Positions 4,571 to 29,955 of a DNA stretch of 34,146 bases are shown in pieces. Position numbers and translations under genes: made by a program. This DNA comes from a virus: the IMG/VR virus record IMGVR_UViG_3300035681_001711, positions 1-34,146 of that record; one strand, written 5' to 3'. The notes under the pieces were generated by a model that had not been told where the DNA came from, did no database searches, and saw only the letters and a program-made list of their open reading frames with translations. Numbering within the stretch: the stretch's first letter is position 1; each line of letters starts with the position of its first letter.

Positions 4571-7500
4571 ATAATTGTACAATTTATAATAAAAGTTTTT
4601 TAGAGGACTTAGAGAATCTAGAGTCGTCTATTAATAGTTGTCAGTTAAATTTTAATGCAGTATCCTCATTGATACAAGCTACGGCACATGAAAACAATAC
4701 TTGGACACCACTATTTATTAATAATACTAATACTAGAGACTATTGTCCATATAAATTATTGTCTGATTTAGGATATATTTCTGGTTACGACAATAACTAT
4801 AATTTTTTAGGAATTCAAGATTTTCTATCTTTAAAAAATCCTGTATTTAATTTTTGGAATGTTGTAAATGGCGAGATGGTCGCTGATTGGGTATTAAATA
4901 ATCCGCTATCTTCACAGTTTCCAGTTGAAGGATTATTATTTTGGTTTAAAAAAGTTTCACAAGTATCTAGTCCATTGCCTCTTTCTTCTTTTCCTAATAA
5001 TAGTAGATTATTATTTGGAAATAGAACTTTTATTAAAATAGATAACGACACCCTTTACGAGATAAGCGACAACAACAGGACCTCTGCTAAATTTACCAAT
5101 ACTAATATTATTTTTAATTATGATACTAATAATCTTAATAATTTTGTTAAATTAAATACTCTGGGTACTGCTAATGCTCCTGCTTTGTTTACAACCACCA
5201 ATCGGGACACTGTAGAAAATAGATTTTTCCAAACAACATCAAGTATTCATGCAGATATTATTATTAATAACAATAAATATGTATTATGGATACCTAATGG
5301 AGATGTATATAGTTATTATACAAATTTAGATGAATCTATAGCAAAAATAAGACCAAAAGCATTTTGTCCAGCATCGCTTTATCAAACATATAATAGTTGC
5401 TATCATAGAATAACATTAGATAATATCAAAGATTTTGAAAAAAGACAACTCAATATTGCTCGATGTTATAAAGATTTTGCAAAGTATTTAGCAACTAGTC
5501 CATACACAGATGAGTTTTCTATTAGTAGATTATCTAATAAAAAGGTTAGAGATATCACCAATAATTATATATTAGATACTAATTTACAAAATGCATTAAT
5601 TAAAACTGTAAAATATTTAGAGTCTAAAAATTTAATAGATAATCTAAATAATAACTTAAATAATAATATTATTTCTAATATTCGTGATTTAAAACTAAAA
5701 ATTATACAAAAATATGGATTGAAGCTACAATTATCCGGAAGCGGTTCGATTAGTACTAAAAGACCACTGGAGCATGGGGCCGATGTTGTTATAAATCAGG
5801 TCGCGTCCTATTTGGTAGATAAAAATATTAATAATACATCTATTTTTGCTAATCAGCTTATCAGTGTTGGTGGTTTAGTTGTTAGAACAGATTTCAAAGA
5901 TCAAGATTCAAAAATATCTTTTATTGGCAATTCATCACCACGAACCAATAGCGATATTACATCGCGAGAAAATGTGCTTGATGAAAATAGCGGAGGTATT
6001 GCTAGACAAAGACCGTTGTATGCTATGAATGCTTTTATGCCCAAAATAAAAAATAGTATTAAAAACAAAATTAATATTGTTATGGAAAAGACTTGTAATA
6101 TTCCTGGTCATCCAGAAAGCGAGAATCCTTTATTGCCTAATAGTCCATTAAACATTTTATTTAAATTTGGTGATTTTAGTGGCCGTCGTGTAGGCACCGC
6201 TGCTTATGCACAGATACCTTCACTCTATACAAATTTAATAAAATTTAATGTTATCGTAGATGACTTTGAACTAGAAACATATAAGTATGCAGAAGATCCT
6301 TTTGCTCCATCAGACATGATTGCAAAAGATTATATCCAATGTCAATGGGAACAAGTTAGTGGACCTCATATGTTTTTTGTTGATCATGTGAAAGCATATA
6401 TCTCTCCCAAAAGTGGCCCATTAATAAATATATCAAGTGAAAAAATTACCGATATTTCAGGATATAATATAGCTACTAATATTTTTATTGGATCAACAGA
6501 AGCATATATTTGGCCTAGTAGTATTGGTAGATATCAAATAAAATGTACTATAAAAACGCCATACGGCACTTTTGTAAAAATTAAAACCTTTTATGTTACA
6601 GGGCCTACTATAGATGATATAAAATCCGTAGTGCCTCCTGGGACCGATATTCGCGACATAGGAGCTGCTTTGAGATCATTAAGACCAGGAGGTGGCGACC
6701 CAAAAAATGACGTGGCTCAATTTATTCCGGATCCGACAGATCAAAACTATATTTTACAAAAAGAGGTCAGGGATATTTACTTAAATAAAGATAATCTAAG
6801 AGTTTTTGTACCAAAGCTGAATAGAATAGCTTTGAATGCAAATGGATTATGTTGGCCGGTAGATACTAATCTATATATTAAAAAAAATCGAAAAAGACCA
6901 CAACTTTTAGTGAATTTGCCGCTCTATCAATTTGTTACAAATGGTACGGGTTCTTCTGGCTCAAGCACTCTTCTTTTACAATATGATCTAAATAATACAA
7001 AGTATAGATTAGAAAAAATAATATTAGAAAATACTAGAAATAATATTGATCCTAAATGTGCTGATTGTTTTAGTTTTTATCTACCACAGTTGTATTCCCA
7101 GGGAAGCACATGGTATAGAACAAAAGGAGATATAGGAGGCACAGACAATGCTTTTTCTCTTATAGGTGTTAGTAAAGACGATGGTTTGGAACAAATACTT
7201 CGTTATTATATTCTTCCTCCAATATCAACAGATTATAGCCCACCCATTAAATCTTATGGAGGATATGATCGCAATATACTTGATACTCTTGATATTTCTA
7301 GTATACCGGACCATGCAAGTCCAGGACAAATTTTGCCCGCTATTACTGGTAGACCACTAAACTATTCCGGAGATTCACCAGGACAAGAAGCTCCTTTTGG
7401 CAAAAAGAAATATTGTTTCGAAGATTACCTACCCGCGTCTAATAGTAATTATTTGTCTTTTGATAAAGGTGTTTTTCATCCTCAAAGCGGATGGATTCCG

Positions 7501-10500
7501 CATGATAGTATTCATTACAATGATGTTAAAAATTTATCTAGTGTATTAAAATTCAATCCCGGTGCTAGAGACTCATTTAGTTTCACCGGACCAAGTATTA
7601 CTAATTTAAATAACGAAGGATATATTGTAGAAACCGGGGTTTTATATATATTACCTAAAAAATGTTCTTCGAAAATTAGTTTAGGAGTAGCTCGTCAGGC
7701 TCAATTTATACCATACCTTCAGCCATGTCAAACAGATCAGGCCGATTGTAGACCCGACCCTCCTCCAGAATGGGAATGGCTAAATCAACTACACAGAGAC
7801 GCTACTGATCAATATCCTAATGTTACACCCGGAATAAATGATGCTCATGGTTATAGGATACTGGGAGGGGGTATGCCTAAACAGATAGAGAAAAATAATA
7901 ATTCTAGTTCTAATCCAGTTATGGATGAATTTCATTTAACTATAGATCAAAATAATAATTTGTTTAATTATTTATTTACGCAATCTGGCCCAGCATACCC
8001 AATTAGCCCCATGCCTGATCAAATTAATAATTTTTTACAAAAATTGACAAGGCCACAAGATACAAATTCACCAGAAGGTGACGCACGAAATTGCGTAGGT
8101 CCTGATGGATCAAAACCACAAGGTGGTTATTATAAAGGCATACCAGATCCAACAGATACGTGGCAGGGCATAAGAAATCCAAGAGTATTAGATTTTACTA
8201 TACAAGATCTTGAAGTTAAATTAAATTTTTTGAATTATGTTAATACAAAAGATATAACCATATCATTTACGTTGGCCCCATGCACAGATGAGTTTCGAAG
8301 AATATGTAGTTCATTATGTTCTTGCTTCGGTGGCGGATCCCTAGACTCTGCTATCAAGCCAGGATCAAATAATTTTATTGATCAAACAATAACAGATACT
8401 CTAGATGGACCCAGATATTTATTTGGTAATGGATATAATACATATGAAAATTTTATTGATACTAGGATCGGATTTGGCGGTAGTATGCTAAAATTTAAAG
8501 ATAGTACATTATTTGTATCGGAATATAGTTCTTTGGATAATTATCTTCGTTTTTTAACTATAATGAATACGGTTTATAATCCACTAGAAGGTACTGATGG
8601 ATTAGGAGAAAATGTATTAGAGCCTCAAATACTATATTTATTAAATCAAGAATATATTCAAAATCATAGTGTAAATTTAAATCTAACTTTTTCAGATAAT
8701 GCTAATAAATATAATGTATTACACGATAAAAGTTTTGCCGCCGAAATGTCGGGGGTTGCTTCTATAGCTAGAAGTAGTCTTCGTTATGGTGCTGGAACGG
8801 CCACGTTTGATGAAATAGATGTAGACAATCGGATAGCTCCATTCTATAAAAAACAATATATTATTAGTAACAATGATATGATTAGGCCAACAACAAGCAC
8901 AAATTACTATTCTGACAGACAAGGCTCCTTATACCATAATATTATTACTACCAATAAACTAAATATAGTGAACAACACATTTGCAAAATATAGACTCAAA
9001 CCATTATTTACCGATTCTACTTGCACAGATAACTGTGGCAGAGGCGTCGCTCCAGTCGGAAGACCAAGATATTCTAGTCAAACTGTTTTTTCTTTGGATA
9101 TAACAGTATACGATGAATCAGATGATATGTCTCCATTGAATAATACTGTTAGCTCTATGATGTTTACTAACGCATATGATTTTACTGGTAAAATAAACAC
9201 TAGTCAATTCGATAATTCGTTATGTAGTTGGGATCTTTTACTTCATGTTGGTAATACTGTTAAACCAACAGTCTCTAATTTAAGTTCATGTCATTCTTAT
9301 GGCAATAATGAAGCATTGGCACTAATAGATTATTCGAATAAGCCTAAGTATCCTGGATATAGTTTTATTGCAAATCTTAGAAACCATAAACATCTTTTAC
9401 CTTTCGTTAATATTAATGCTCCAAATATATTTTTCTATGATCACAGCATATGTCAGATTGCTAAACTGGATCAACTGGGATCTACAACACCAAGTTATTT
9501 AGTAGATTTTCCAACAAATGCAATTCTCAATATATTAACAATTATGGCCGGTGTAGCCGGTATGAGTGGTGCCGGACTAATAGGTATAAACACAGGAATA
9601 GCTGGAGCTGGACCAGGTTTAGATGCTGCTTATGGTAGTATTATATCATATTTTAATGATATAAGATTATCACAATATCGATCAGATATTGCTCAAGATG
9701 TTTTTCATCAAGATTATAGTAGATATCCTTTTGGTAGTCCAGAAAAAATATTAATTAATTTTAGCAAAGATGGTATATTTTGGTATAAAGCAGAGGCTTC
9801 AATATTTAAGTATGGAAATACTCCTGTTTTATCCACAAAAAAATATAGTTATATTAAATTAAATAAAAATTCATTTCCATTATTATCTAGATTTACATTC
9901 GATTTTGTAACAGATATTAGGGATCTAATAGATGATAAATATATTAAAACATTATCATTGCCTTGCGATAGAGCAACGTCCTTGGTTGGTCCGATAACAT
10001 ATAATAATATATCTTATAATCGGTATGATTTAGTGGACATCTCTTTTACAATAGATGATGAATCTAATACTACCGAATTATGCAAAAATGGAATCTATTC
10101 TGTTACAGATAATCAGTGGGTCTTATTATCAGGTAATCCATTATTAATAAATAGTAATCTAGATTACATTTCGGATAATAGTGTACTTGTCAATCATTAT
10201 AATGGTAGTTCGATAAGTAGTATTTTTTCAAATTTTACTGACAGTATACTAAATAATCAAATTATTATTTTAGATGGCAAAATACCTTATGAGATATTTT
10301 CTTTCAACGACAATGTGGAGGTAAGTGGAAATAATTTGGCACCAGACCCTATTATAGAAGAACCAACTGGTCCGGAAACTACACCAGGATTACCAACCGG
10401 AGATTCCACCCCTACCACGCCAACTCCACCACAACCATCTGGTCCAACATATACAAGGAAAGTTATAGGAAAAGGCTTGATATATAAGGATACAAAACCA

Positions 10501-19730: not shown

Positions 19731-21379
19731 GTGTTATTTTTTAGATGTGCGTATTGAATAAAGTCTTCTTCGAATTTATGATTTGTTTTTCTTATATCTT
19801 CGGATCTATTATTGTTATCTATCATAACATTTATATAATCATATATATTATTAATATCATATGCGGATATTTGGGTTGGAGAATTATAGCTAAATCCATA
19901 ATCAGCGTTTTGTAGCATATTCAAAAATTTAAATGAAGATAATAAATCTGCATTTCTTACATAATTATTACAAAGATTTGCTAATACGCTAAAATTATTT
20001 TTATTACTATCCGACTGGGTTTTATCGGCTTTATTTAAGATAGTTAACGGTACGTTCCAGTCTGCTCTATATTCCAGATTATCAAAATAGTTTTCCCATA
20101 CTTTGGATATATCATCCCAATTATAATATTTTTCTGTTAGTTGTCTTATTTTTAATCTTTCTGTATTTCTAATCGGTATTGGTTTGGCTATTTGCTTGAG
20201 TATAATACCAATTAGATCTTTGTTATTCGGATATACACGAATGGCTTTTGTTTCTAACTCTTTAAAATAAGAACTAGGATTAACTTTGAATGCTTGTAAT
20301 TTTTCTATAATGTCAACCATTGCACTATAATCTACGGTAGCAATAGGTATCCCACACGCGCCTGCTTCAACTTGTGGCATACCAAAACCTTCACAAATAG
20401 CATATTGTACATAAAGATCAAACAGATTATATATTTCACTTAATTGAGTATCTGAAACACCATTTGATACAGATGGGAACTGACAGGTTTTATTTAGGCA
20501 TTTTGAACACACTTTTAATGGACCACTAAAAACACAAGCCTCAGTATTCTGACAAGTTTTGCATAGGTATGTAAATAGGACATGGTTGGATACTTGGTAT
20601 TGACTAAGTAATTCCGGTATATCCCAGCCCATGTCCGGATATGTGGTATGTAGATATAGGTAAATTTTTTGATTAGTATTTTGTATTTCGGGCAAGGAGA
20701 TTATCTGTTTAAGACTATATAAGAGTTCTGGTATTAGTTTGCGTTTCTGATTTCTCATCACGGAACCAAACACAAAAGCTTCTTGTGGTATATTGAATTT
20801 TTGACGTAGTAGATTTTTATCTTTGATAGAAAAAATATTTAAATTTACACCTGGGCTGGTTGTTGCTATGTACTTAATTTTATTATTAGTTTGTTCTTTT
20901 AGAACTTTTGCCCCCCAATCACTATATGTAAAAATGGCATCTGTTGATAGAAATACGTCTACCCACTCTTCTTGTTGTGGAGCAGAATCTACTGTGGGCA
21001 TAAGGATATGATGAAAATAAGATCTTAAAGGAGATAAGGTTTGGTAGCCGCTCATCCAAAAATCTCTTACGTCAACAACAACATCAGGCTTAAAGTCTAA
21101 TAGAACTTTCTCAAATCTCCACCTTCCAAATTGATTATCTGTTCTAGACATGTATTCCTTATATCTAGGATCATTATCTCTCACAGCATTTGCATAATAA
21201 ATCCAGTCTATATTTTTATCTCTCGGATCATTGACCATACCATAGGAAGCAAATTCTGCAACAACGTATTTGTTAGTTTTATGCCATCTGGATAAAATCT
21301 CGTAAGCATATTTACCAAAACCAGAATTTATGAAGCTGGCTTCGGAGCACATCAATATTTTTAGTTTAGATTTTGCCAT
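19727..21379 (-). CDS. GT4-family glycosyltransferase with zinc-finger insert
   Basis: This is a 550-aa retaining GT-B enzyme. The N-terminus ILMCSEASFINSGFGKYAYE (8-27) is the acceptor-domain strand, Gly loop and helix. The C-domain has FVFGSVMRNQKRK (202-214) and the donor-binding E-x7-E motif CEGFGMPQVEAGACG (E330 and E338 intact). Between residues 273 and 299 sits a six-Cys insert (CKTC, then C282, CSKC, C299), probably a zinc module, not part of a minimal GT4. The last 100 residues are a separate helical region. The ATG at 21379 has no Shine-Dalgarno; a GC-clamped stem-loop lies just upstream. It probably transfers a sugar to phage DNA, a virion protein or a host surface polymer; the sequence does not decide which. 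Confidence 0.85.
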   Translation of the reverse strand: MAKSKLKILMCSEASFINSGFGKYAYEILSRWHKTNKYVVAEFASYGMVNDPRDKNIDWIYYANAVRDNDPRYKEYMSRTDNQFGRWRFEKVLLDFKPDVVVDVRDFWMSGYQTLSPLRSYFHHILMPTVDSAPQQEEWVDVFLSTDAIFTYSDWGAKVLKEQTNNKIKYIATTSPGVNLNIFSIKDKNLLRQKFNIPQEAFVFGSVMRNQKRKLIPELLYSLKQIISLPEIQNTNQKIYLYLHTTYPDMGWDIPELLSQYQVSNHVLFTYLCKTCQNTEACVFSGPLKVCSKCLNKTCQFPSVSNGVSDTQLSEIYNLFDLYVQYAICEGFGMPQVEAGACGIPIATVDYSAMVDIIEKLQAFKVNPSSYFKELETKAIRVYPNNKDLIGIILKQIAKPIPIRNTERLKIRQLTEKYYNWDDISKVWENYFDNLEYRADWNVPLTILNKADKTQSDSNKNNFSVLANLCNNYVRNADLLSSFKFLNMLQNADYGFSYNSPTQISAYDINNIYDYINVMIDNNNRSEDIRKTNHKFEEDFIQYAHLKNNT

Positions 21380-21385
21380 TATATA

Positions 21386-21422
21386 ATAGAATAAGGGGGA
21401 TGTTTCACCCCCAATATTCTAT
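21386..21422 (-). other. GC-clamped stem-loop between ssb and GT4 gene
   Basis: ATAGAATA (21386-21393) pairs perfectly with TATTCTAT (21415-21422). Inside it GGGGG (21395-21399) pairs with CCCCC (21408-21412), leaving an eight-base loop in which TG/CA can pair further. It lies 22 bases after the ssb stop and 6 bases before the GT4 start on the transcript. No U-tract follows, so it is not a standard intrinsic terminator. It could be an attenuator, a processing site, an mRNA stabiliser or a translational control hairpin for the SD-less GT4 gene. Confidence 0.6.
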
Positions 21423-21444
21423 ATTCATTCCTCTTTGAGTCTTG

Positions 21445-21813
21445 TCAGAAAGCAACCGATTCTGATTCTTCTGCCTTTGATCTACTAAGCTTAGTGATCT
21501 TCGAAAAGTTATTAACTCTAACTTTTAGACTACTATGCTTAACTCCATCTTTTTCCCATGTGTCATTTCTAAGAGATCCTTCTACCATAACCAAATCTCC
21601 CTTTTTAAGGGATTCGGCAATAGTTTCTGCTCCGCTGTCCCATGCTTCGCAGTTAATGAAAGATGTAATTCTGTCTTTTTCTCCATTAGACTTTACATAG
21701 TCTCTATTAACAGCAATAGTAAAGTTTACTACGCTAGTTTGTTTTCCGTTTGGATTAACAACTCTTAGCTCAGGATCTCGTGCAAGATTACCCTTCAACA
21801 ATGTGATATTCAT
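21445..21813 (-). CDS. ssb: Single-stranded DNA-binding protein
   Basis: This is a 122-aa protein with the bacterial SSB OB-fold signature: ITLLKGNLARDPELR at the start, VVNFTIAVNRDY, then INCEAWDSGAETIAESLKKGD and VMVEGSLRNDTWE. It ends in an acidic tail with terminal Phe (ESESVAF), equivalent to the partner-binding tail of cellular SSB, so recruitment of replisome proteins is likely. A TTG two codons upstream (21819) is only three bases from the ribosome site, so the ATG at 21813, eight bases from GGAG (21822-21825), is preferred. It has its own promoter overlapping the end of the polymerase gene upstream, which would allow higher expression than the rest of the replication block. Confidence 0.95.
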   Translation of the reverse strand: MNITLLKGNLARDPELRVVNPNGKQTSVVNFTIAVNRDYVKSNGEKDRITSFINCEAWDSGAETIAESLKKGDLVMVEGSLRNDTWEKDGVKHSSLKVRVNNFSKITKLSRSKAEESESVAF

Positions 21814-21854
21814 TTTCAAAACTCCTAAAAGTAAAAACGCTACAACTATATAAC

Positions 21855-21882
21855 ATTATACCAAGCGGCAGCGTTTTGTCAA
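21855..21882 (-). promoter_or_regulatory. Near-consensus sigma70-type promoter for ssb
   Basis: On the minus strand a perfect TTGACA (21877-21882) is followed after 16 bases by a perfect TATAAT (21855-21860). Transcription would start near 21848, giving a 5' leader of about 35 bases before the ssb ATG with its GGAG. The -35 box overlaps the TGA stop of the upstream polymerase ORF. This is the only full-consensus promoter I found by eye in the window. Confidence 0.85.
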
Positions 21883-21895
21883 GATCTTGGTATAA
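21856..21895. repeat. 10-bp inverted repeat over the ssb promoter
   Basis: TTATACCAAG (21856-21865) and CTTGGTATAA (21886-21895) are perfect reverse complements separated by 20 bases. One arm covers five bases of the -10 box and the other lies just upstream of the -35 box, inside the last codons of the polymerase ORF. The layout suits an operator for a dimeric repressor, or a hairpin at the end of the polymerase message. No regulator gene is identified here. Confidence 0.7.
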
Positions 21896-23492
21896 AACAT
21901 TTTTCTACTATAAAAGAGTCTTTTTTAGGACTCTTATTGCCTAGAAATATTAGTACATTTCCTTCGAATAGATAGTTTCGATATTTAGACAATTGATCAG
22001 GAAATAGGATAACGGAATCCAAGGATGCGTATTGATCCTCTATTGTGACAAAAGCCATTTCTGCACCAGCATTTTTCCCATTCTTTGTCTTAACAAAATT
22101 TATATTACTAATTTCGCCAGCTAAAATAATATTTTTAACATTATTGGTATGTTTAAACATTTTGCAATCACAGTTGGTCATACTAATGTCGTACGAGTCT
22201 ATTTTAAAACAGGTAATAGACGCCCCAAGCAACGCATTTTCTGTGTCAGACAACCATTCTATTTTATCATTTAGTGAGTATGGTGGATTTTTATATAGTT
22301 TAATTAAATTTTGTATATTAGTTTTTCGTTTAATATTAATCTTACTATTAGTCAGTAGATTCTCTAAAACTTGTCCTAAATGTTTTTGGTTTATGTCTAA
22401 AAGATCTAATTCTCTAGATGTTAATTCTGATATTATGTCATATTCAAATAACATTTGTGTGCGTGACATATGATAATAATCAAGGGCTCCGCATGATATT
22501 AGTGCCTTAGCGGCTGTAGAGTTTATTTTATTGAGCAATTTTACTAAGCATCCATACCATGATATAGAATTAAGATCCATATTTTTGACTATTTCCATAA
22601 TCTTATCATATACCGAATAACCAACACCTTTTATATCTGTTAAACCAAAATAAATTTTATCATCGTTTATAGTAAAGTGTTTATTAAGTTTTCTTAAATC
22701 TGGAACGCAAACAGTAACATCCATTTCTGTCGCGTTTCTAATTAATTCCTTAATCTCTTTTTGGGGATCCATCTTGTCTTTTGCGAACTTTAAATATGAT
22801 GCAAAAAATACTTTGGCAAAGTGTGCTTTTGCATATGCTGATGAATATGCATTCATAGCATAACTTACAGCGTGGCTCTTGTTAAAGCTATATCTTTGAC
22901 TTTTTTCTATCCAACCAAAAATTTCTTCGCTCTCATCTTCCGAGACAATATTAAGTTTTTTAACACCATCTTTGAATTTAACTTTGATTTTTGCCATTTC
23001 TTCTGGTTTCTTTTTGCCTATGGCCTTACGAAGCATATCGGCTTCTTGAAGATCGAACCCGGCCACCGCCTGAGCGATTTGCATGGCTTGTTCTTGATAA
23101 ATCATCTCGCCATAGGTGGATTTTAATGAAGGCTCAAGAGAAGGATGGAAGTAGTCTAATTCTTCTAGACCATTTTTTTTATCTATATAATGATCACTGA
23201 TGCTTTTGCCTTCCCTATATGCCTCTAATGATCCTGGTCGCATAATACTAATCAATGCAGAAAGCTGCTCTATATTTTGTGGTTTAAGTTTTTTGGACAT
23301 GCTAGAGCCTAGTCTGGACTCTAATTGGAAAACGCCTTTTGTGTTTCCTTGTGCTATCATATCCCATGTTTTGGAACATTCTAGATTTAGATTTTCTAGT
23401 TTGCCATCGAAATCTATTCTAGGAATACCATCCTGGGTATAGTCCAATACCTTAAATTTACAACCACAATCAAACGTATAGTGATGATTCAT
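21879..23492 (-). CDS. DNA polymerase III alpha, fingers and OB-fold fragment
   Basis: This 537-aa C-terminal third of a bacterial-type (C-family) polymerase starts with HHYTFDCGCKFKVL, not part of standard DnaE. It joins the family at NTKGVFQLESRLG (about residue 50) and continues through LSALISIMRPG, YGEMIYQEQAMQIAQAVAGF, EADMLRKAIGKKK and SQRYSFNKSHAVSYA, the fingers and primer-template region. A helix-hairpin-helix-like part (LTDIKGVG) follows, then an OB fold near residues 450-520 (KNIILAGEISNI, MAFVTIEDQYASLDSVILFP). It carries no catalytic Asp of its own and must work with the palm fragment at 24374-25258. I recall phage polymerases with an FDCGC segment, so this start may be natural. 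No Shine-Dalgarno is seen; the upstream exonuclease stop lies six bases before the start. Confidence 0.9.
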   Translation of the reverse strand: MNHHYTFDCGCKFKVLDYTQDGIPRIDFDGKLENLNLECSKTWDMIAQGNTKGVFQLESRLGSSMSKKLKPQNIEQLSALISIMRPGSLEAYREGKSISDHYIDKKNGLEELDYFHPSLEPSLKSTYGEMIYQEQAMQIAQAVAGFDLQEADMLRKAIGKKKPEEMAKIKVKFKDGVKKLNIVSEDESEEIFGWIEKSQRYSFNKSHAVSYAMNAYSSAYAKAHFAKVFFASYLKFAKDKMDPQKEIKELIRNATEMDVTVCVPDLRKLNKHFTINDDKIYFGLTDIKGVGYSVYDKIMEIVKNMDLNSISWYGCLVKLLNKINSTAAKALISCGALDYYHMSRTQMLFEYDIISELTSRELDLLDINQKHLGQVLENLLTNSKINIKRKTNIQNLIKLYKNPPYSLNDKIEWLSDTENALLGASITCFKIDSYDISMTNCDCKMFKHTNNVKNIILAGEISNINFVKTKNGKNAGAEMAFVTIEDQYASLDSVILFPDQLSKYRNYLFEGNVLIFLGNKSPKKDSFIVEKCFIPRS

Positions 23493-23497
23493 AAATA

Positions 23498-24199
23498 TTA
23501 TGCGGACGCTGTGGCGAACGCGTTTTTGAATTTAACCTTATTACCAAGATTTCTATGAAGTTTCATAAATCTAATAAGAATATCAGCCGTGGCTCTTACA
23601 TCATTTAGAGCATCATGAGATCCACTATTGCCAAGACCTAGGTATTCTCTAACATTATCTAATGTATAGTTTTTTAGTTCATTGTTTCCTTCAAACCAAT
23701 AAAATATAACATTCATTAGATCTATAACGTCTCGTGGATAAAAAAGAGATGTTCTTCCCTCCTTATTGACATTATTATATTTCGTACTTAGTCTTTCTAT
23801 AATTCTAAGATCAAATCTATTTATATTGTATCCAGCGGCTATTGGTGCTGTAAAACAAGATTTTTTATCTGATCTTATATGATATTTCTCTAAATAAGAT
23901 ACGAACATTTTCCATCCATTATCCTGATTTTGATAAGATTTCCAGTCCTCTAATATTTTGGTTTTCTCGCATCCTCTAACCTTGGCATGGAAATCAAGAA
24001 CATCACTATCATCATATATATAATCAGGTTTTTCATCCAATATGGATGGTTTTAGATTAATATTAAATTCTGAATCTTTGATAATTTCTAATTTATATGG
24101 ATCTATTATCAGAGAGGCAATTTGAACGGGGCTACAAAGGTCAGGATTAGCCCCGTCCGTTTCTAAATCAAATACACAAATTTTTTGTAAATTAGCCAT
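23498..24199 (-). CDS. DEDDh 3'-5' exonuclease (DnaQ/epsilon-like)
   Basis: This is a 233-aa proofreading-type exonuclease. Motif I is FDLETDG (D11, E13), motif II is AAGYNINRFD and motif III is GSHDALNDVRATAD with the His and Asp in place, so all DEDDh residues are intact. It is longer than a minimal epsilon domain, with an insert after motif I (residues 50-90). GGAG lies four bases before the ATG. The gene sits between the palm and the fingers ORFs of the polymerase and overlaps the 60-aa ORF upstream by eight bases. It is probably the proofreading subunit of this phage's split polymerase. Confidence 0.92.
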   Translation of the reverse strand: MANLQKICVFDLETDGANPDLCSPVQIASLIIDPYKLEIIKDSEFNINLKPSILDEKPDYIYDDSDVLDFHAKVRGCEKTKILEDWKSYQNQDNGWKMFVSYLEKYHIRSDKKSCFTAPIAAGYNINRFDLRIIERLSTKYNNVNKEGRTSLFYPRDVIDLMNVIFYWFEGNNELKNYTLDNVREYLGLGNSGSHDALNDVRATADILIRFMKLHRNLGNKVKFKNAFATASA

Positions 24200-24374
24200 T
24201 TGTCTCCACTACTGTGTTTCCTGGGAAAAAAGTCCTTTGATTACTATCTGTCGCAACATGACAATTAACGCTTCTGCAACAACTTACTCTAACTTCTTGG
24301 ATCTTAGTATATTCTACATTATTAGCTTTAAAGTTTTCGCCCACAGCAACTTGGTCTAATGTTTTTGTTAACAT
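24192..24374 (-). CDS. Small conserved phage-type protein, 60 aa
   Basis: The ATG overlaps the TAA of the palm fragment (TAATG), with GGAG seven bases upstream, so it is a real coupled gene. The sequence LDQVAVGENFKANNVEYTKI followed by FFPGNTVVE matches a small beta-rich module I recall from many phages (V-G-x-x-F-x-x-x-G-x-x-Y-x-K then F-x-x-x-T-x-V). The middle contains Cys-Cys and another Cys (VSCCRSVNCHV). Function is unknown. Its position between palm and exonuclease genes is notable. Confidence 0.7.
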   Translation of the reverse strand: MLTKTLDQVAVGENFKANNVEYTKIQEVRVSCCRSVNCHVATDSNQRTFFPGNTVVETNG

Positions 24375-25258
24375 TATAGTTCTCCGTTTTTTAGGTATTC
24401 TGATACAGACATGATTTTGTCCAAATAAGCTATACCCAATATATCAAATTTAATTAAACCCAAACTCTCTAGATCATTCATCTCCATGCCCGCTATCAGC
24501 TGATCATTTCTATTATCATAGACCATAGGACACAGAGATGCAAGATCTTCGGTACCTATTATTACACCAGCAGCGTGTTTGCTTTGGTTGGATTTTGTTC
24601 CTTCAAGCCTTATGGCCTGTTCAAATCTTTTCGATAATGGACCAGCCAACGAACCATCTTCTGCTATATAGCACCATTCTTTCAGTTTGTCTGTGTTATT
24701 CTCTAAAGCCCATCTAATAATCGAGGCTTCTCCGGTATCTTCTTTCATCTCTTGAAGTTCGTCGGCTATTTTGGCTTCGTCAGGAATAAATTTGGTAATA
24801 GAATTCATTTCTTCGAAAGATATATTACCATATACTCTTAGCACATCTTTTAACGCCCCTCTACCTTTCATAGTATTAAAAGTAATCATTTGTGATACTT
24901 TGCCATGTCCATATTTACTTTTTATATATTCTAATACTTGTTCTCGTTTATCTATTGGGATATCTATATCGATATCTGGCATTTGTATTCTGGCTGGAAT
25001 GCTTTGTATTGGACGAGTATTATCAAGCTGATCGACAATACCATATATCCACATTATATAACTATTAATAGTGTTTTCGGATAAAATATTTTTATTTACT
25101 ATTATATGATTATAGTATGATATATTTTCTGGAGCCGAAAGAACTATAGAGCATTCATGTTCAAGAAATCTATTATTTTTTTCTTGTTCTAACCTTTCGA
25201 TTATAGGCTGGCTTTTAATCTCATGTACTAGTCTAGTAAGTGTAGAATTTTTTTCCAT
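24374..25258 (-). CDS. DNA polymerase III alpha, catalytic palm fragment
   Basis: This is a 294-aa protein. From residue 89 onward it is clearly C-family polymerase: RIQMPDIDIDIPIDKRE (catalytic Asp pair among D95/D97/D99), YGHGKVSQMITFNTMKGRGALKDV, RLEGTKSNQSKHAAGVII (thumb/palm) and LGLIKFDILGIAYLDKI (third catalytic Asp, D272). It stops soon after, before the fingers. The first 86 residues (MEKNSTLTRLVHEIKSQ onward) have no counterpart I recognise in DnaE, yet they are open and in the same frame. The start overlaps the 3' end of the LAGLIDADG gene by 31 bases and has no Shine-Dalgarno. The frame is the same as that of the PHP fragment at 26069-27367. It is either a separately translated subunit or a downstream exon. 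Confidence 0.9.
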   Translation of the reverse strand: MEKNSTLTRLVHEIKSQPIIERLEQEKNNRFLEHECSIVLSAPENISYYNHIIVNKNILSENTINSYIMWIYGIVDQLDNTRPIQSIPARIQMPDIDIDIPIDKREQVLEYIKSKYGHGKVSQMITFNTMKGRGALKDVLRVYGNISFEEMNSITKFIPDEAKIADELQEMKEDTGEASIIRWALENNTDKLKEWCYIAEDGSLAGPLSKRFEQAIRLEGTKSNQSKHAAGVIIGTEDLASLCPMVYDNRNDQLIAGMEMNDLESLGLIKFDILGIAYLDKIMSVSEYLKNGEL

Positions 25259-26046
25259 TTGTAGTCTATATATAAATGATTGTTTAGTAAATATTTTGCT
25301 ATAACTTTAATTTCACTCTTGTTTTGGTATATTAACTGATACAAGTCTCTATTTTTTATTTTTGTTGGTTTTTTATATTTTACAGGTAAGGCTTTGGATA
25401 CTGTTTCCAAATTTTCTGGAAGATATGAACATATACCTATGTTGTAACCAGTGTAGACTTTATTTTTATTGGTTTGTTTTTTTATACTAACCCATCCATC
25501 AGCATCCCAATATCCTCTTATAAAATCTGGCCATAATAATTGATCCGACGGTAATTTTAAAGTACTATACCATGTTTTTCTTGGTATAATACCATATTTT
25601 GATATATTATTTGCTAAAATATCACTAGTAAATTGAAATGTACACCTATTATCGTAGTCTTTTACTATATTAGAGCCTATTAAAAATTTAGAAAATTTAA
25701 TCAAATGTTTTTTTGATTCTGATCCCAAGCATAATTGTAGCTTATTACTATCACTAATATTTCCATCGCCAAAAATAAAACCAAGCCAATAAGCTGATGC
25801 GGCATCTAATTTAGAGAAATCATTTAATAATTTTTTTTTACTATTTTTAGTAAATCTAGTTGATTTTGCTAAACAACCACAACTTTTAACATGGTTAATC
25901 TTTATCATAGATAGTTTCTTATAACAGACATTGCCGCATTTACATTTACACTTAGCAATTGTTTCTCCTTTACTATCCGAAACTAAAGTTATTATAGTAA
26001 GTAAATTATAACTCTTATTTTTATAGTCTTTTATTTTAGCTTTCAT
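25228..26046 (-). CDS. LAGLIDADG homing endonuclease between polymerase fragments
   Basis: This is a 272-aa protein. Its N-terminal domain (YNLLTIITLVSDSKGE, CKCKCGNVCYKK, VKSCGCLAK) is the Cys-rich DNA-binding module seen in several homing endonucleases. Two LAGLIDADG helices follow: AYWLGFIFGDGNIS and FIRGYWDADGWVS, each ending in the catalytic acidic residue, so the enzyme looks intact and monomeric. The open frame begins at 26079, but the ATG at 26046 has a perfect GGAGG (26051-26055) and is chosen. It lies in a frame different from both polymerase fragments, so this is not an intein. It sits exactly where the polymerase is interrupted, between the GRGSAAG and PDIDID motifs, so it is either intron-encoded or a free-standing gene that split the polymerase. 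Confidence 0.9.
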   Translation of the reverse strand: MKAKIKDYKNKSYNLLTIITLVSDSKGETIAKCKCKCGNVCYKKLSMIKINHVKSCGCLAKSTRFTKNSKKKLLNDFSKLDAASAYWLGFIFGDGNISDSNKLQLCLGSESKKHLIKFSKFLIGSNIVKDYDNRCTFQFTSDILANNISKYGIIPRKTWYSTLKLPSDQLLWPDFIRGYWDADGWVSIKKQTNKNKVYTGYNIGICSYLPENLETVSKALPVKYKKPTKIKNRDLYQLIYQNKSEIKVIAKYLLNNHLYIDYKWKKILHLLD

Positions 26047-26050
26047 ATTG

Positions 26051-26108
26051 CCTCCGGAATTATACTGTTTATACACCATTTTTAAATGTTTGTATAGAAA
26101 ATTCCGGA
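26051..26108 (-). promoter_or_regulatory. Nested hairpin covering the endonuclease ribosome site
   Basis: On the minus-strand RNA three nested helices form. A perfect 9-bp outer stem pairs 26100-26108 (AATTCCGGA on the plus strand) with 26053-26061, a 6-bp stem pairs 26091-26096 with 26070-26075, and a 5-bp stem pairs 26084-26088 with 26077-26081. Three bases of the GGAGG ribosome site are inside the outer stem, and the stop codon of the PHP fragment (26069-26071) lies in the internal loop and inner stem. The structure would hide the ribosome site of the endonuclease unless opened, for example by ribosomes finishing the upstream gene. Confidence 0.7.
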
Positions 26109-27367
26109 AAAGATATGTGTTCTTTTACATTCCTGCCATCGGAATAAAATCTTTCGAATAGTAATTCGTGTTTAATAGGGTCTATATCTGTAATACCTAT
26201 TAAATAAGAAACCAAGCATCCGGCTGCGCTTCCTCGTCCTGGTCCTGCTAACCAATTATTATTTTTAACATATCTTAGTATGTCTTGAACAATTAGAAAA
26301 TAACTACTAAGCCCAGCATTTTGCAAAACCTGTAGTTCATATTTTATTCTATCAACATAAATATCGTGTTGTGATTTGTCAATATTCGGTATAATTCTAT
26401 TTTTCCAACCTTTTCTACATAATTCTCTTAAATATTCATCCGGAGAGAATCCTTCGGGACATTCGAATTTAGGCAATTTAGGTGGTGATAGTATATCAAA
26501 ATTTTCTATTAGACTATCCACAAATAAAGTGTTTTCTATCTCTTCATCGCTATGAAGAGTTTTCATTTCTTCCGGAGACAGAATATAGTATTTGTCACTT
26601 TTAAAGAAACACTCCATAGGTACGGATTGATTATGAAGCATTTTGGTATTTATATCTGATAATGTTGTTTTAAGATTATTACAGAGTAATATCCTTTGAT
26701 CTATAGCATCGTCTTGTTCGCAATAATGAGCATCCGGTGTGCATACCGCTTTTGTTTTACTTAATTGAGAGATTCTTCTTATTGTATCTGTTAAATATGT
26801 TTGTTGTTTTAGATATGCTTGATCAAATAGTTGTGTCTCTAGAAAAAAATTATCAGTGCCAAATATAGTTTTCATATAGTCCACAAAAGATAATCCATTA
26901 TCTATAGCTTTGGATTCGTCGCATAATATCTTATCTGCTAATGTTGATCCCAAATGTCCACAAATACCTATAATGTTACCATCCAGTATTTCTGCTAATT
27001 TAGCCAGGCTTAAACGCGGCTTATGATAAAAGTAATCGGGTCTGTTAGATTCGGAAACAATCTTTATTAAGGTTTTCCATCCTTGCAAATTCTTCGCCAA
27101 TACCAAAAAATGTGATAATGAAGCATTTTCTTTTGTTTGTATACTCGGATCATCTTCGCATATATATAATTCACAACCAAGAATTGGTTTTATATTTTTA
27201 TTTCGCATTTTCTGATAGAACTGTACAGAGCCGGCGATGTTACCATGATCGGTTAAGGCACAAGAATTAATGCCTAATTTAGAACATCTATTAGCTATTT
27301 GTTCTGGACGATTAAGACCATCCAAAAGACTAAAATGCGAATGACAATGAAGAACAGAATAGGTCAT
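26069..27367 (-). CDS. DNA polymerase III alpha, PHP and N-palm fragment
   Basis: This is a 432-aa N-terminal third of a C-family polymerase. The PHP domain looks metal-competent: HCHSHFSLLDG, ALTDHGN, GCELYICED, SHFLVLAKN and CTPDAHY keep the His/Asp/Glu ligands. The palm begins with LAGPGRGSAAGCLVSYLIG (from residue 374) and ITDIDP. After LLFERFYSDGRN (413) the protein ends with a short tail, ISFPEFSIQTFKNGV. Normally PDIDID, with the catalytic Asp pair, should follow; here ISFPE looks like a broken copy of that motif, and the true motif is in the ORF at 24374-25258. The ATG overlaps the stop of the Cas4-like gene (ATGA) and has AGGA five bases upstream. A separate DEDDh exonuclease nearby makes the PHP role uncertain. 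Confidence 0.92.
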   Translation of the reverse strand: MTYSVLHCHSHFSLLDGLNRPEQIANRCSKLGINSCALTDHGNIAGSVQFYQKMRNKNIKPILGCELYICEDDPSIQTKENASLSHFLVLAKNLQGWKTLIKIVSESNRPDYFYHKPRLSLAKLAEILDGNIIGICGHLGSTLADKILCDESKAIDNGLSFVDYMKTIFGTDNFFLETQLFDQAYLKQQTYLTDTIRRISQLSKTKAVCTPDAHYCEQDDAIDQRILLCNNLKTTLSDINTKMLHNQSVPMECFFKSDKYYILSPEEMKTLHSDEEIENTLFVDSLIENFDILSPPKLPKFECPEGFSPDEYLRELCRKGWKNRIIPNIDKSQHDIYVDRIKYELQVLQNAGLSSYFLIVQDILRYVKNNNWLAGPGRGSAAGCLVSYLIGITDIDPIKHELLFERFYSDGRNVKEHISFPEFSIQTFKNGV

Positions 27368-29352
27368 ACTGATCCTGGCGCTTTGTAAGATCCAAAAGAA
27401 TGATTCGGGTGTTTGTACATACTCATTGTAGCATCGATCCCATAAAGTTCAAGGTCGTGCTTGACTTGTTCGCACTTTGTCATGACAGATCCTTTTTGAC
27501 ATATTTGTCCATCTCTATATTCCTCCAAAGGTTGTATGCTAGTATTTTCAAAAGTGGTTTTACCGAAATGGCATAATTTATTACACATCCATGTTTTATT
27601 AAGCTTAGGACGTTTTGTTTTCTTAATAATATCAAATTTTTCTCTCAACATATTTTCTGTGTCTATGAGATCGCTATCATGAAATACCATAGAAAAAGGA
27701 CCACCATCATTAATAAAGTAGATAGAAAAAATTACATTTTCAATATGCGGATATAATTTTTTAATAGCATAGTGATAAATTTTAAGTTGTGGATCTTTTT
27801 CTAACTTTTCTTGGGTTTTTTCTTGACCGGTTGCCCAATCTAGTCTTCGTCCAGTATTATGTGTTGGAATATAATTTTCTGTACACAGATAAGTATTGTC
27901 TGGACTGTCTACGGAAATGCATTGAGTTTTTTGTATAATCGATTCTTCTATTTTAGAAACTCGTCTAACCCTAGATCTTCCAGATCCCCAATTTACATCC
28001 ACAAGTTCTTTTTTCCTGTTCAATAGAAAAGGATTAATGTCAATTGGACGAAACGAAATAGGATATATGATTACGTTTTTTTTGTAATTTGTATCTCTTT
28101 TAATACACGCTTGATTCGGTCTTTGCCCAAGGGTTAAAAGTAGGTCTTTAACATCGTCGGATAGTTTTTTATTACAAGAAGTAAACACAGTTTGTTTTCT
28201 AATTGGATTTACATTTCCGTCTGTATCCATCAAACCCCTTAGTAAGTCTAGCCTTTGTTGAAAAGATGCTCTCAAATAAATTTTTGGTATATGTTTATTA
28301 TTCAATAGATTTAAAGATTTTAGTATTTTTGTCACATTTAGGATCGATACTGTCTTATTTTTTGATCTTTTATCATTTTGAATTTTTCCTAGCTCATAAC
28401 CTCTTGCTTGTATTTCTTCAAAAATTTCAGTATCATTGCCACTAATCTCGCAACCTCTATTTCTTCCGTCTCCTAACCAGACTCCTAATAGATAAGGATC
28501 TATTGGTAGGGATTGTTCATTACATTTTAATGGTTTTGTCACATTAATAGTATCGCCAATAGCTAGATCCTGTATAGATACCGTTTCACCATTAGATAAT
28601 TTCCATAAATGCTCATCGTCACAAATTACCGATGTTTTGTCATCAAAAGTTACTCTGAAACATTTTTTTGTTTTGACTTTTGATTTTCCAACAACGCGAC
28701 ATATATTACCGTATTGATCAAAGACATTACATCCCACATTTATATCTGCAATTGTTGTCCATCCGTCAAGAGTAGGTAATTTTGTATCTAATGGCAATCC
28801 TTTCCAATCTATGACCTCAATAGTATTATCATTAGCCAAAGTTATAAGATCTATAGTGCCTTTTAAGCCCAAATATCCATCTAGTTTTTGATTATTAATA
28901 TTATACTCGTATTTAGCCCATGGTTTTTCTATTACCAAATCAAAGTGTTGTTCTGGTCTAAGAATGGTGCGATTTCTAGGATCAAACATACCGCCATTAA
29001 ATTCTATAGCCTTGTAAACCCAATTATAGCAGTCCTTATAATCTTTTAGAGTCCAAGTATGATGACTATTAGCGGTACTATAATGCTTGTATACTTTTTC
29101 TATTATGGTATTAAGACTATAGTCATTTATATCTATAAGACCTAAGAATTCGTCGTCATTTATATGAGATAATTTATCTTGCTGACCTTGTTTGATCATG
29201 GCAAGAATTTCTAAAACTTTATGGACTATTGTTCCTTTATCTGCCTTTTGTCCACTTGGACCCCTCCATCCTAGTACATATTCAAAAAAATATTGTTGTT
29301 CGCACATAGAATGGGCATTATAAGACGAACTACGGAAATAAGTTATAATCAT
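27364..29352 (-). CDS. Cas4/RecB-like PD-(D/E)XK nuclease precursor with intein
   Basis: This is a 662-aa precursor. Removing the intein (185-499) leaves 347 aa. N-terminal part: YFRSSSYNAHSMCEQQYFF with C17, GTIVHKVLE (H44, motif I), GTIDLI (D168, motif II) and EVIDWK (D182, K184, motif III). After the intein: TGRR, then PQLKIYHYAI (Q-x-x-x-Y motif). Four Cys near the C-terminus (C590, C594, C618, C627) together with C17 suggest the iron-sulfur cluster of Cas4/AddB-type exonucleases. The likely role is end resection for recombination or replication, next to the polymerase. AGGA lies five bases before the ATG. Until splicing, the active-site Lys is separated from TGRR and the enzyme should be inactive. 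Confidence 0.9.
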   Translation of the reverse strand: MIITYFRSSSYNAHSMCEQQYFFEYVLGWRGPSGQKADKGTIVHKVLEILAMIKQGQQDKLSHINDDEFLGLIDINDYSLNTIIEKVYKHYSTANSHHTWTLKDYKDCYNWVYKAIEFNGGMFDPRNRTILRPEQHFDLVIEKPWAKYEYNINNQKLDGYLGLKGTIDLITLANDNTIEVIDWKGLPLDTKLPTLDGWTTIADINVGCNVFDQYGNICRVVGKSKVKTKKCFRVTFDDKTSVICDDEHLWKLSNGETVSIQDLAIGDTINVTKPLKCNEQSLPIDPYLLGVWLGDGRNRGCEISGNDTEIFEEIQARGYELGKIQNDKRSKNKTVSILNVTKILKSLNLLNNKHIPKIYLRASFQQRLDLLRGLMDTDGNVNPIRKQTVFTSCNKKLSDDVKDLLLTLGQRPNQACIKRDTNYKKNVIIYPISFRPIDINPFLLNRKKELVDVNWGSGRSRVRRVSKIEESIIQKTQCISVDSPDNTYLCTENYIPTHNTGRRLDWATGQEKTQEKLEKDPQLKIYHYAIKKLYPHIENVIFSIYFINDGGPFSMVFHDSDLIDTENMLREKFDIIKKTKRPKLNKTWMCNKLCHFGKTTFENTSIQPLEEYRDGQICQKGSVMTKCEQVKHDLELYGIDATMSMYKHPNHSFGSYKAPGSV
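27856..28800 (-). mobile_element. Class 3 intein (Gly1) with LAGLIDADG endonuclease
   Basis: This is a 315-aa in-frame insertion from G185 to N499, followed by T500. Block A is GLPLDTKLPTLDGWTT; block B has TSVICDDEHLW (W250); the endonuclease motifs are LLGVWLGDG (288-296) and LLRGLMDTDG (370-379). Block F has QCISVDSP (C478) and block G is YIPTHN (T497, H498, N499). Trp in block B, Cys in block F and Thr in block G form the WCT set that defines class 3 inteins, the type found in the mycobacteriophage Bethlehem DnaB intein. These use the block F Cys as first nucleophile and so do not need Cys or Ser at position 1. The element looks active for both splicing and homing. Confidence 0.93.
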
Positions 29353-29361
29353 GATATCCTA

Positions 29362-29955
29362 TTATTGGGGTAGTACATTAAAATGTAACATAAGTTTTTT
29401 AAGTTTATCGTATTGCTCTCTAACTGTCATATGTTCATTATTAATGATAGCATTAAAATTATTCCAATCATATCTACAAGCATCTAATATTGATTCGCTA
29501 ATATGTTCTGATTTGTGTGGATTTCTATTTAGTCGAAATACTATTCCTCCATTATTTTTTATAGCTTCTATTTCATTAGGAAATCTACAATCAGAAACTA
29601 TAACAACTTGAAGTTTACTCTTTTTAATTTTATTGATAAGAGCATTTACCCAAACATTATTATTTAATTTTCTAAATAAGTCGGTGCCTATTAATTGCAT
29701 TAAATCTCTAGCTGTTAGTTGCTTATCTTCCCAATAGGCATCAATTAGTTCATTCTTGTTATGATCTTCACCATAACATTGAACATATGATAATCCAAAC
29801 ATATTCATGCATATGTCTTCTTTTAATGGGTCTGCAAAGTTATATATTTCAACATCAGAATATCCATTGGATAATAATAATCCTTTTAAAAATTCTGAAC
29901 AAATAGTTTTGCCAGACTGCTTACGGCCAGAAAATGCTATTATTTTAGTATTCAT
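29362..29955 (-). CDS. Deoxynucleoside monophosphate kinase
   Basis: This is a 197-aa P-loop kinase. IIAFSGRKQSGKT (5-17) is the Walker A motif. LTARDLMQLIGTDLFRKL followed by VW, and VVIVSDCRFPNEIEAI, are the substrate-binding and DR-type segments found in T4 gene 1-like dNMP kinases. It phosphorylates dNMPs, including modified ones in some phages, to feed dNTP synthesis in the host cytoplasm. The ATG overlaps the primase stop (TAATG). It lies inside the replication operon, upstream of the Cas4-like gene with a nine-base gap. Confidence 0.92.
   Translation of the reverse strand: MNTKIIAFSGRKQSGKTICSEFLKGLLLSNGYSDVEIYNFADPLKEDICMNMFGLSYVQCYGEDHNKNELIDAYWEDKQLTARDLMQLIGTDLFRKLNNNVWVNALINKIKKSKLQVVIVSDCRFPNEIEAIKNNGGIVFRLNRNPHKSEHISESILDACRYDWNNFNAIINNEHMTVREQYDKLKKLMLHFNVLPQ

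Follow-up and report, generated by a model that had tools for sequence, protein, structure and literature searches.

In cyanobacteria, DnaE, the alpha subunit of DNA polymerase III, is encoded by two genes whose products are joined by a split intein inside the fingers domain. Fractured genes, reportedly described by Dassa et al. 2009, are divided in two around a nuclease gene and accompanied by split inteins. Homing endonucleases can also create genes in pieces, as in nrdA of Aeromonas phage Aeh1 (mobE), topoisomerase gene 60 of phage T4 (mobA) and gene 43 of Aeromonas phage 25 (seg); the pieces of Aeh1 NrdA and of phage 25 gp43A/43B are active or co-purify, and reassembly proceeds without ligation (PMC2988022). 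Here we analyze a dnaE gene that lies in three pieces on a viral DNA of 34,146 bases (IMG/VR record IMGVR_UViG_3300035681_001711; hereafter the window, i.e., the whole record stretch). Comparison with related sequences makes it likely that three separately translated chains form one replicative C-family DnaE, and that they reassemble without covalent joining.

As in Aeh1, T4 and phage 25, an essential replication gene that is undivided in relatives lies in the window as two open pieces with an endonuclease gene in between. The window differs from these three examples in its C-family polymerase, in a LAGLIDADG rather than HNH or GIY-YIG endonuclease, in a cut immediately before the strand that bears the catalytic Asp residues, in a conserved protein extension that travels with the inserted cassette, and in a second break that is shared across its group. 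It resembles the cyanobacterial split DnaE in drawing DnaE from several genes, but is broken at other sites and without an intein. With fractured genes it shares the two pieces and the nuclease gene, and relatives of the window (L026, L032, L139, L201/L202 and L330) carry a break of just that kind; the window breaks, in contrast, lie elsewhere and lack intein halves. Each ingredient is of a known kind: genes in pieces made by homing endonucleases and, in database records, DnaE on two coding sequences (CDS). As far as we searched, what is new is a group-wide two-chain DnaE with a cysteine motif, together with a recurrent cassette that inserts at the catalytic strand and carries a conserved head. 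No description of a split phage DnaE was found in the open-access literature, judged by titles and abstract openings among the matches listed.

All pieces are encoded on the minus strand. Chain 1 (F1; 26069-27367, 432 aa) carries the PHP domain and the N-terminal palm (Pfam PHP and DNA_pol3_alpha 1-99); chain 2 (F2; 24374-25258, 294 aa) carries an N-terminal extension, here called the head, and the catalytic palm (DNA_pol3_alpha 96-260); and chain 3 (F3; 21879-23492, 537 aa) carries the fingers, HhH and a probable OB domain (DNA_pol3_finger, 1.5e-47; HHH_6, 1.1e-10). A C-terminal OB domain is suggested by a Pfam tRNA_anti-codon match that falls below cut-off (E 0.0085) and by a weak second phmmer match to E. 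coli residues 985-1054. Break A, between F1 and F2, contains a LAGLIDADG homing endonuclease of 272 aa counted from the ATG at 26046 (25228-26046; the open reading frame, or ORF, is open from 26079 and spans 25228-26079; Pfam LAGLIDADG_3, 3.1e-8; phrog_4645 endonuclease, 1.7e-27; motif FIRGYWDADG). Break B, between F2 and F3, contains a 60-aa ORF (24192-24374), similar to an ORF in many relatives, and the gene for a DEDD-type 3'-5' exonuclease that is probably a proofreader (23498-24199; RNase_T, 4.3e-9; phrog_192 DNA polymerase exonuclease subunit, 4.4e-22). The ORF list and Pfam thus agree with a sequence-only reading of the window, which had assigned PHP and N-palm, catalytic palm and fingers to three ORFs in the right order, with the endonuclease, the 60-aa ORF and the exonuclease between them, and had summed the pieces to 1263 aa.

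PHP, a palm with three Asp residues, fingers and HhH are all present across F1, F2 and F3. The catalytic Asp residues, which the sequence-only reading had called intact, fall at F2 residues 95 and 97 (PDIDID) and 272 (KFD) and are invariant in a 30-row alignment. F1 aligns to E. coli DnaE residues 9-404. The F2 palm spans the stretch from about E. coli 393 (Thermus 456) to about Thermus 637, and the alignment is taken up again by F3 at Thermus 646 (E. coli 589), the E. coli match running from F3 residue 35 onward. These alignments to solved DnaE put break A just ahead of the PDIDID strand, and break B within the palm-fingers linker. Eight other IMG/VR contigs from eight data sets (L001-L008) share this layout, with protein identities of 98-100% for F1, endonuclease, F2 and F3, although L002 ends within F3 and L004 within F1. 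The layout is also found in a GenBank contig of a metagenome-assembled genome (MAG; L191, RFNS01000104.1), so an assembly error is unlikely.

The genes are tightly packed. F1 begins before the nuclease gene upstream of it has ended. The endonuclease ATG (26046), which is preceded by GGAGG, follows the F1 stop after a spacer of 22 nt, and the endonuclease and F2 overlap by 31 nt. The 60-aa ORF begins on the F2 stop and is overlapped by the exonuclease gene, which is followed after a 5-nt spacer by F3. This packing suggests co-translation from one mRNA. Promoter-like sites in 21300-29500 number 47, against 44.8 expected from shuffling. Separately, a perfect match (12/12) to a sigma-70-type promoter with an extended -10 lies at 21882-21855 on the minus strand, overlapping the F3 stop and ahead of the gene for a single-stranded DNA-binding protein.

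Relatives were collected by scans that used F2, F3, the head and the endonuclease as queries, along with sequences from L188 and L170; together with one locus of the window's own record and the window itself, these gave 337 loci. Many of the loci are repeats of one contig (two of the scans alone cover 116 distinct contigs), most scans kept the best 80 matches only, and the set is not a census. Clustering at 95% fingers identity gave 101 lineages, 98 of which could be scored by script at break B.

Break A appears to be a mobile homing-endonuclease insertion with close empty alleles, more recent than break B. In most relatives F1 and F2 form a single ORF (588-669 aa, stop to stop, at the 249 loci with the PHP start present). 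In two close empty alleles, L010 and L011, the joined ORF reads GRN-TKDRIS-MPDIDID and the palm core is 99% identical to the window, as is F3 of L011; the L010 contig lacks F3. A contig start inside F1 at L011/L087 is not a real F1/F2 split. The insert comprises 1,146 nt (26128-24983), compared with 18 nt in L010, and is larger than the endonuclease ORF. It also covers the F1 tail (26069-26128), i.e., the 19 codons after GRN plus the stop, which replaces TKDRIS of L010, and the F2 head (24983-25258), a conserved 92-codon extension for which no counterpart was seen in unsplit relatives. On the 5' side of the insert, a tract of about 200 nt (26128-26327) is only 78-81% identical per 100 nt to L010/L011, while the next 100 nt outward are 96% identical and the first 100 nt downstream of the insert 95-97%. 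A one-sided divergent tract of this kind would be expected from co-conversion during homing. Co-conversion occurs in phage homing (PMC2988022).

Insertions at the cassette site occur in five divergent lineages, namely the window, L009, L169, L170 and L188. L009 is 65% identical to the window in F3 and 56% in the endonuclease, and F1 identity to the window is 34% in L170 and 31% in L169. L170 provides a second presence/absence pair, since its close kin L267-L269 are empty and L268 is 90-97% identical to it in nucleotide blocks. In L188 the cassette site is filled while F2 and F3 are fused, and all that is left of the endonuclease in L169 is a stretch matching its last ~38 residues, with F1 and F2 still separate open frames. 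A tree made by a quick method, with long-branch warnings, needs four label changes for the four cassette lineages that could be placed. The sequence features that mark genes in pieces are present here: an endonuclease ORF between two open pieces, a close relative without the insert, a sign of co-conversion and a patchy distribution. Together they point to arrival of the cassette by homing.

Break B appears, from the same comparisons, to be an old, group-wide trait. By script, 97 of 98 lineages are split there and one (L188) is fused; three more (L334-L336, 26-34% identical to the L170 query), left unscored by the script with low palm coverage, have palm and fingers in one ORF by eye, which brings the full tally to 97 of 101 split. 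The exonuclease gene lies between palm and fingers in all 97. CxCx[FW] opens the fingers chain in 92 of the 97, with a third Cys further on, ahead of a Trp; in the window this pattern is represented by CGCKF within the N-terminal extension of F3 (23391-23492). The motif is missing in L170, L267, L269 and L288, and could not be judged in L333, where the fingers lie on two ORFs. The fused L188 also lacks it; a quick tree, again with long-branch warnings, places L188 within the split group, and its fusion may therefore reflect re-fusion or recombination. The sequence-only reading had treated the two breaks as one phenomenon, a view that is not supported, given the contrast between an old group-wide split and a mobile insertion with empty alleles. 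It had also proposed a search of metagenomic phages for the same break points and for unsplit relatives; both exist, with break B in 97 of 101 lineages and the break A site in five, and with L010 and L011 uninterrupted at break A and L188 and L334-L336 unsplit at break B. Break B is widened to 4,490 nt in L149 and to 3,441 nt in L156, so additional sequence can accumulate at this position.

All five cassette lineages share an F1 tail of similar pattern and an F2 head of about 90 aa, the latter 51% identical to the window in L009, 44% in L188, 38% in L169 and 33% in L170. The head was found in 12 contigs, 11 of them in a further scan, and in one MAG contig, and F1 and F2 are separate in each; no unsplit DnaE with a head-like loop appeared in the viral-contig scans for the head, in which the pattern search was limited. 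A five-way codon alignment has 21 invariant residues, 16 of which vary synonymously; of the 16 invariant residues that lie in the head, 13 do so, and the head is therefore most likely translated. Estimated against L009, the head has a ratio of nonsynonymous to synonymous substitution rates (dN/dS) of 0.34, F1 of 0.17, the F2 core of 0.09 and the endonuclease of 0.21, at dS values of 1.5-2.0 that are near saturation; these values indicate that every piece is under purifying selection. A Pfam scan of four of the five heads gave no convincing family and no intein (the best match, unrelated, had E 0.0043), and a tblastn search of 50,697 phage records with the window head found nothing at E values up to 1. 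A model of the L188 head, palm and fingers reached a mean predicted local distance difference test (pLDDT) score of 81, with helices in the head and block pLDDT of 65-92 over residues 1-70. All 16 DnaE/PolC rows among the 50 Foldseek matches listed for this model begin at residue 76-86, past the head. PHROG 13169 (463 aa) is matched by F1 to its last residue, and the match to PHROG 12219 (823 aa) starts at F2 residue 93, which hints that phage databases may already contain comparably broken pieces.

A working enzyme is likely on several grounds. Each of four longer contigs that hold the three-piece gene (100-152 kb) carries a single DnaE set (two DNA_pol3_alpha matches, corresponding to F1 and F2, and one fingers match), and neither an A-family nor a B-family polymerase was found on any of the four; in addition, the frames are open and under purifying selection. 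We propose that the LAGLIDADG cassette landed, by homing, immediately before the PDIDID catalytic strand, where it supplies a stop for chain 1 and a start plus the ~90-aa head for chain 2. The overlapping, co-directional genes would be co-translated from one mRNA; the chain 1 tail, the chain 2 head and the CxC extension of chain 3 may help the pieces to dock into a single palm-fingers active site; and the exonuclease would act as the proofreader of the assembled enzyme. More tentatively, and with the balance of probability somewhat against it, the cassette could be a mobile element that carries its own reassembly parts, the tail of chain 1 and the helical head of chain 2 docking the severed halves. 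This would let it settle at the catalytic strand without an intron or intein, and would let the split persist after loss of the endonuclease, as in L169. If so, the cassette and the CxC-tagged fingers chain together would mean that this polymerase has evolved a modular, non-covalent assembly.

Several observations weigh against the three-chain reading. The dS values are near saturation, and some head pairs have little third-position excess (dN/dS of 0.67 for L188 against L009). The head is poorly predicted in the window F2 model (pLDDT 39-66 in blocks of ten over residues 1-90; mean pLDDT 64). No donor for the divergent tract was found among the 292 loci without a window-type head, where L010/L011 are the best at 79-80% and others reach 78% (L009, 77%), so fast local divergence is another possible origin of the tract. 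L169 has a reduced PHP region in F1 and its fingers lie off the contig, so its polymerase may not be whole. The four long contigs may be incomplete, so that another polymerase could lie elsewhere. The case is built on sequence comparison, and the docking roles given to the tail, the head and the CxC extension are conjectural.

The gene is also interrupted by inteins in some relatives. In four fingers clusters (L026/L032, L139, L201/L202 and L330), a different break lies at GPGRG^SAAG; it is flanked by an N-intein of ~90 residues and by a C-intein that ends in GVHN^S, and a separate nuclease-like ORF sits between these halves, as in fractured genes with split inteins. Together with the cassette break, this brings the independent kinds of nuclease-associated break in the polymerase gene to at least two. 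The split-intein break should be healed by protein splicing, while the cassette break is apparently not healed at all.

Joining of the window chains by some undescribed trans-splicing, through an unrecognized split intein or another ligation, would be in keeping with the split intein at GPGRG^SAAG of this same gene, where a nuclease also sits between the halves, and with an unusual intein in the nuclease gene next to the window polymerase. However, neither window break has intein motifs by reading, as the sequence-only reading had said: the 19-residue F1 tail and the 92-residue F2 head lack an intein start and HN/Cys-Ser end motifs, the Pfam scan of four of the five heads was negative for inteins, and nothing intein-like was seen at break B. 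We regard trans-splicing as highly improbable. LAGLIDADG genes often reside in introns, and break A might accordingly be a self-splicing group I or group II intron with F1 and F2 as exons, giving the two-chain enzyme that the sequence-only reading had allowed for through RNA splicing. Joining F1 ...HIS to F2 MPDIDID would even yield a family-like HISMPDIDID, with the preceding codon ending in T. At gathering cut-offs, however, Rfam found no intron in the window, and at permissive E values the only match in 24900-26250 was to a snoRNA (E 3.7). The 22-nt and overlapping junctions leave the same impression, and an intron would remove the head, whose conservation as protein in five lineages, with synonymous variation at most of its invariant residues, argues for translation. 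Splicing into two chains is thus disfavored, and an intron seems improbable.

It might also be supposed that the insertion killed the polymerase, that the pieces are pseudogene fragments and that a host enzyme replicates the virus. The close empty alleles suggest that insertion in the window lineage was recent, and the reduced PHP region of L169 would fit such decay. Yet the frames are all open in the window and in nine other contigs (98-100% identical, bar the two that run off the contig), F1 and F2 of L169 are still open after loss of most of the endonuclease, break B is kept across the group, and the four long contigs carry no substitute polymerase and no second DnaE. Decay therefore has very little probability, which upholds the earlier impression of a functional enzyme. 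A different origin for the head, as a degenerate second copy of the N-palm from a partial duplication on endonuclease insertion, is rather unlikely. Local alignments set NSYIMWIY.IV..LD of the head against GSLIAWLTGIVELD of phage phiT1, and the window head alone gave p 0.005-0.05 against eight of nine N-palms, in a test made after the likeness had been seen; but the other four heads reached p 0.05 or less against only one or two of the nine, profile comparison was not significant (hhalign E 0.36 and 0.48), and the alignments listed between the L188 model and solved DnaE/PolC start after its head.

Three separately translated chains that reassemble without covalent joining are thus the reading we prefer, and they would make the locus a natural experiment in protein fragment complementation, in which a replicative polymerase is cut beside its catalytic aspartates by a selfish gene and apparently still works. 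Since the site is known in an empty state, in a filled state and with most of the endonuclease lost, how a gene survives insertion without splicing can be put directly to the test. The group-wide split of palm from fingers, with its cysteine motif, would be a second example of such tolerance, in a naturally modular DNA polymerase.

We compared isolate phage records, which were picked because search listings hinted at something and are not a sample. Across phage records, DnaE and helicase matches are all below 60% identity. In Rossellomorea phage phiT1 (gp20 and gp18, with the 49-aa gp19 between) and in Corynebacterium phage P1201 (gp59/gp58, overlapping CDS), DnaE is interrupted in the linker from palm to fingers. 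Like the window, both have PHP and palm on one CDS, fingers on a neighboring one and a linker break; unlike it, they have no exonuclease gene in the gap, an undivided palm and distant sequences. Bacillus phage KLEB27-3 (gp166/HNH/gp164) resembles the window in having DnaE on two CDS with an endonuclease gene between, but its endonuclease is HNH and its break lies just inside the fingers domain. Breaks between PHP and polymerase occur in Terapin, Poultress and Send513. A single DnaE CDS is present in the named records of Moorella phage MTATph1, Myrna and LinStu; Mycobacterium phage LinStu had been a candidate F1-only match and was ruled out on this ground.

Several minor observations concern inteins. 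The PD-(D/E)XK nuclease gene upstream of F1 (27364-29352, minus strand) contains an in-frame LAGLIDADG intein bounded by DWK/GLPLDT and PTHN/TGRR, with Gly as its first residue; its block-F Cys and +1 Thr resemble those of class 3 inteins. Identity of L012 to the window is 98-100% over the intein and the N-terminal extein, but only 78-88% on the C-terminal extein side, and L020 and L023 lack the intein. The fingers ORFs of L268, L319 and L330 carry in-frame insertions, probably inteins, with ~230-250 residues between the two fingers parts. In L333, the fingers lie on two ORFs (6836-7801 and 8725-9861) that meet near model position 170, and the second opens with what looks like the end of an intein ahead of SHAVSYA, so this may be a further split intein.

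Two further loci differ in layout. In L334 (5203-8590), the PHP domain and the polymerase core occupy different ORFs, an arrangement shared with Terapin, Poultress and Send513. In L158 (4424-4930), F1 and F2 are out of one frame and the PDIDID region is missing, while its cluster-mate L150 is unsplit there, which may reflect an assembly error or a real deletion.

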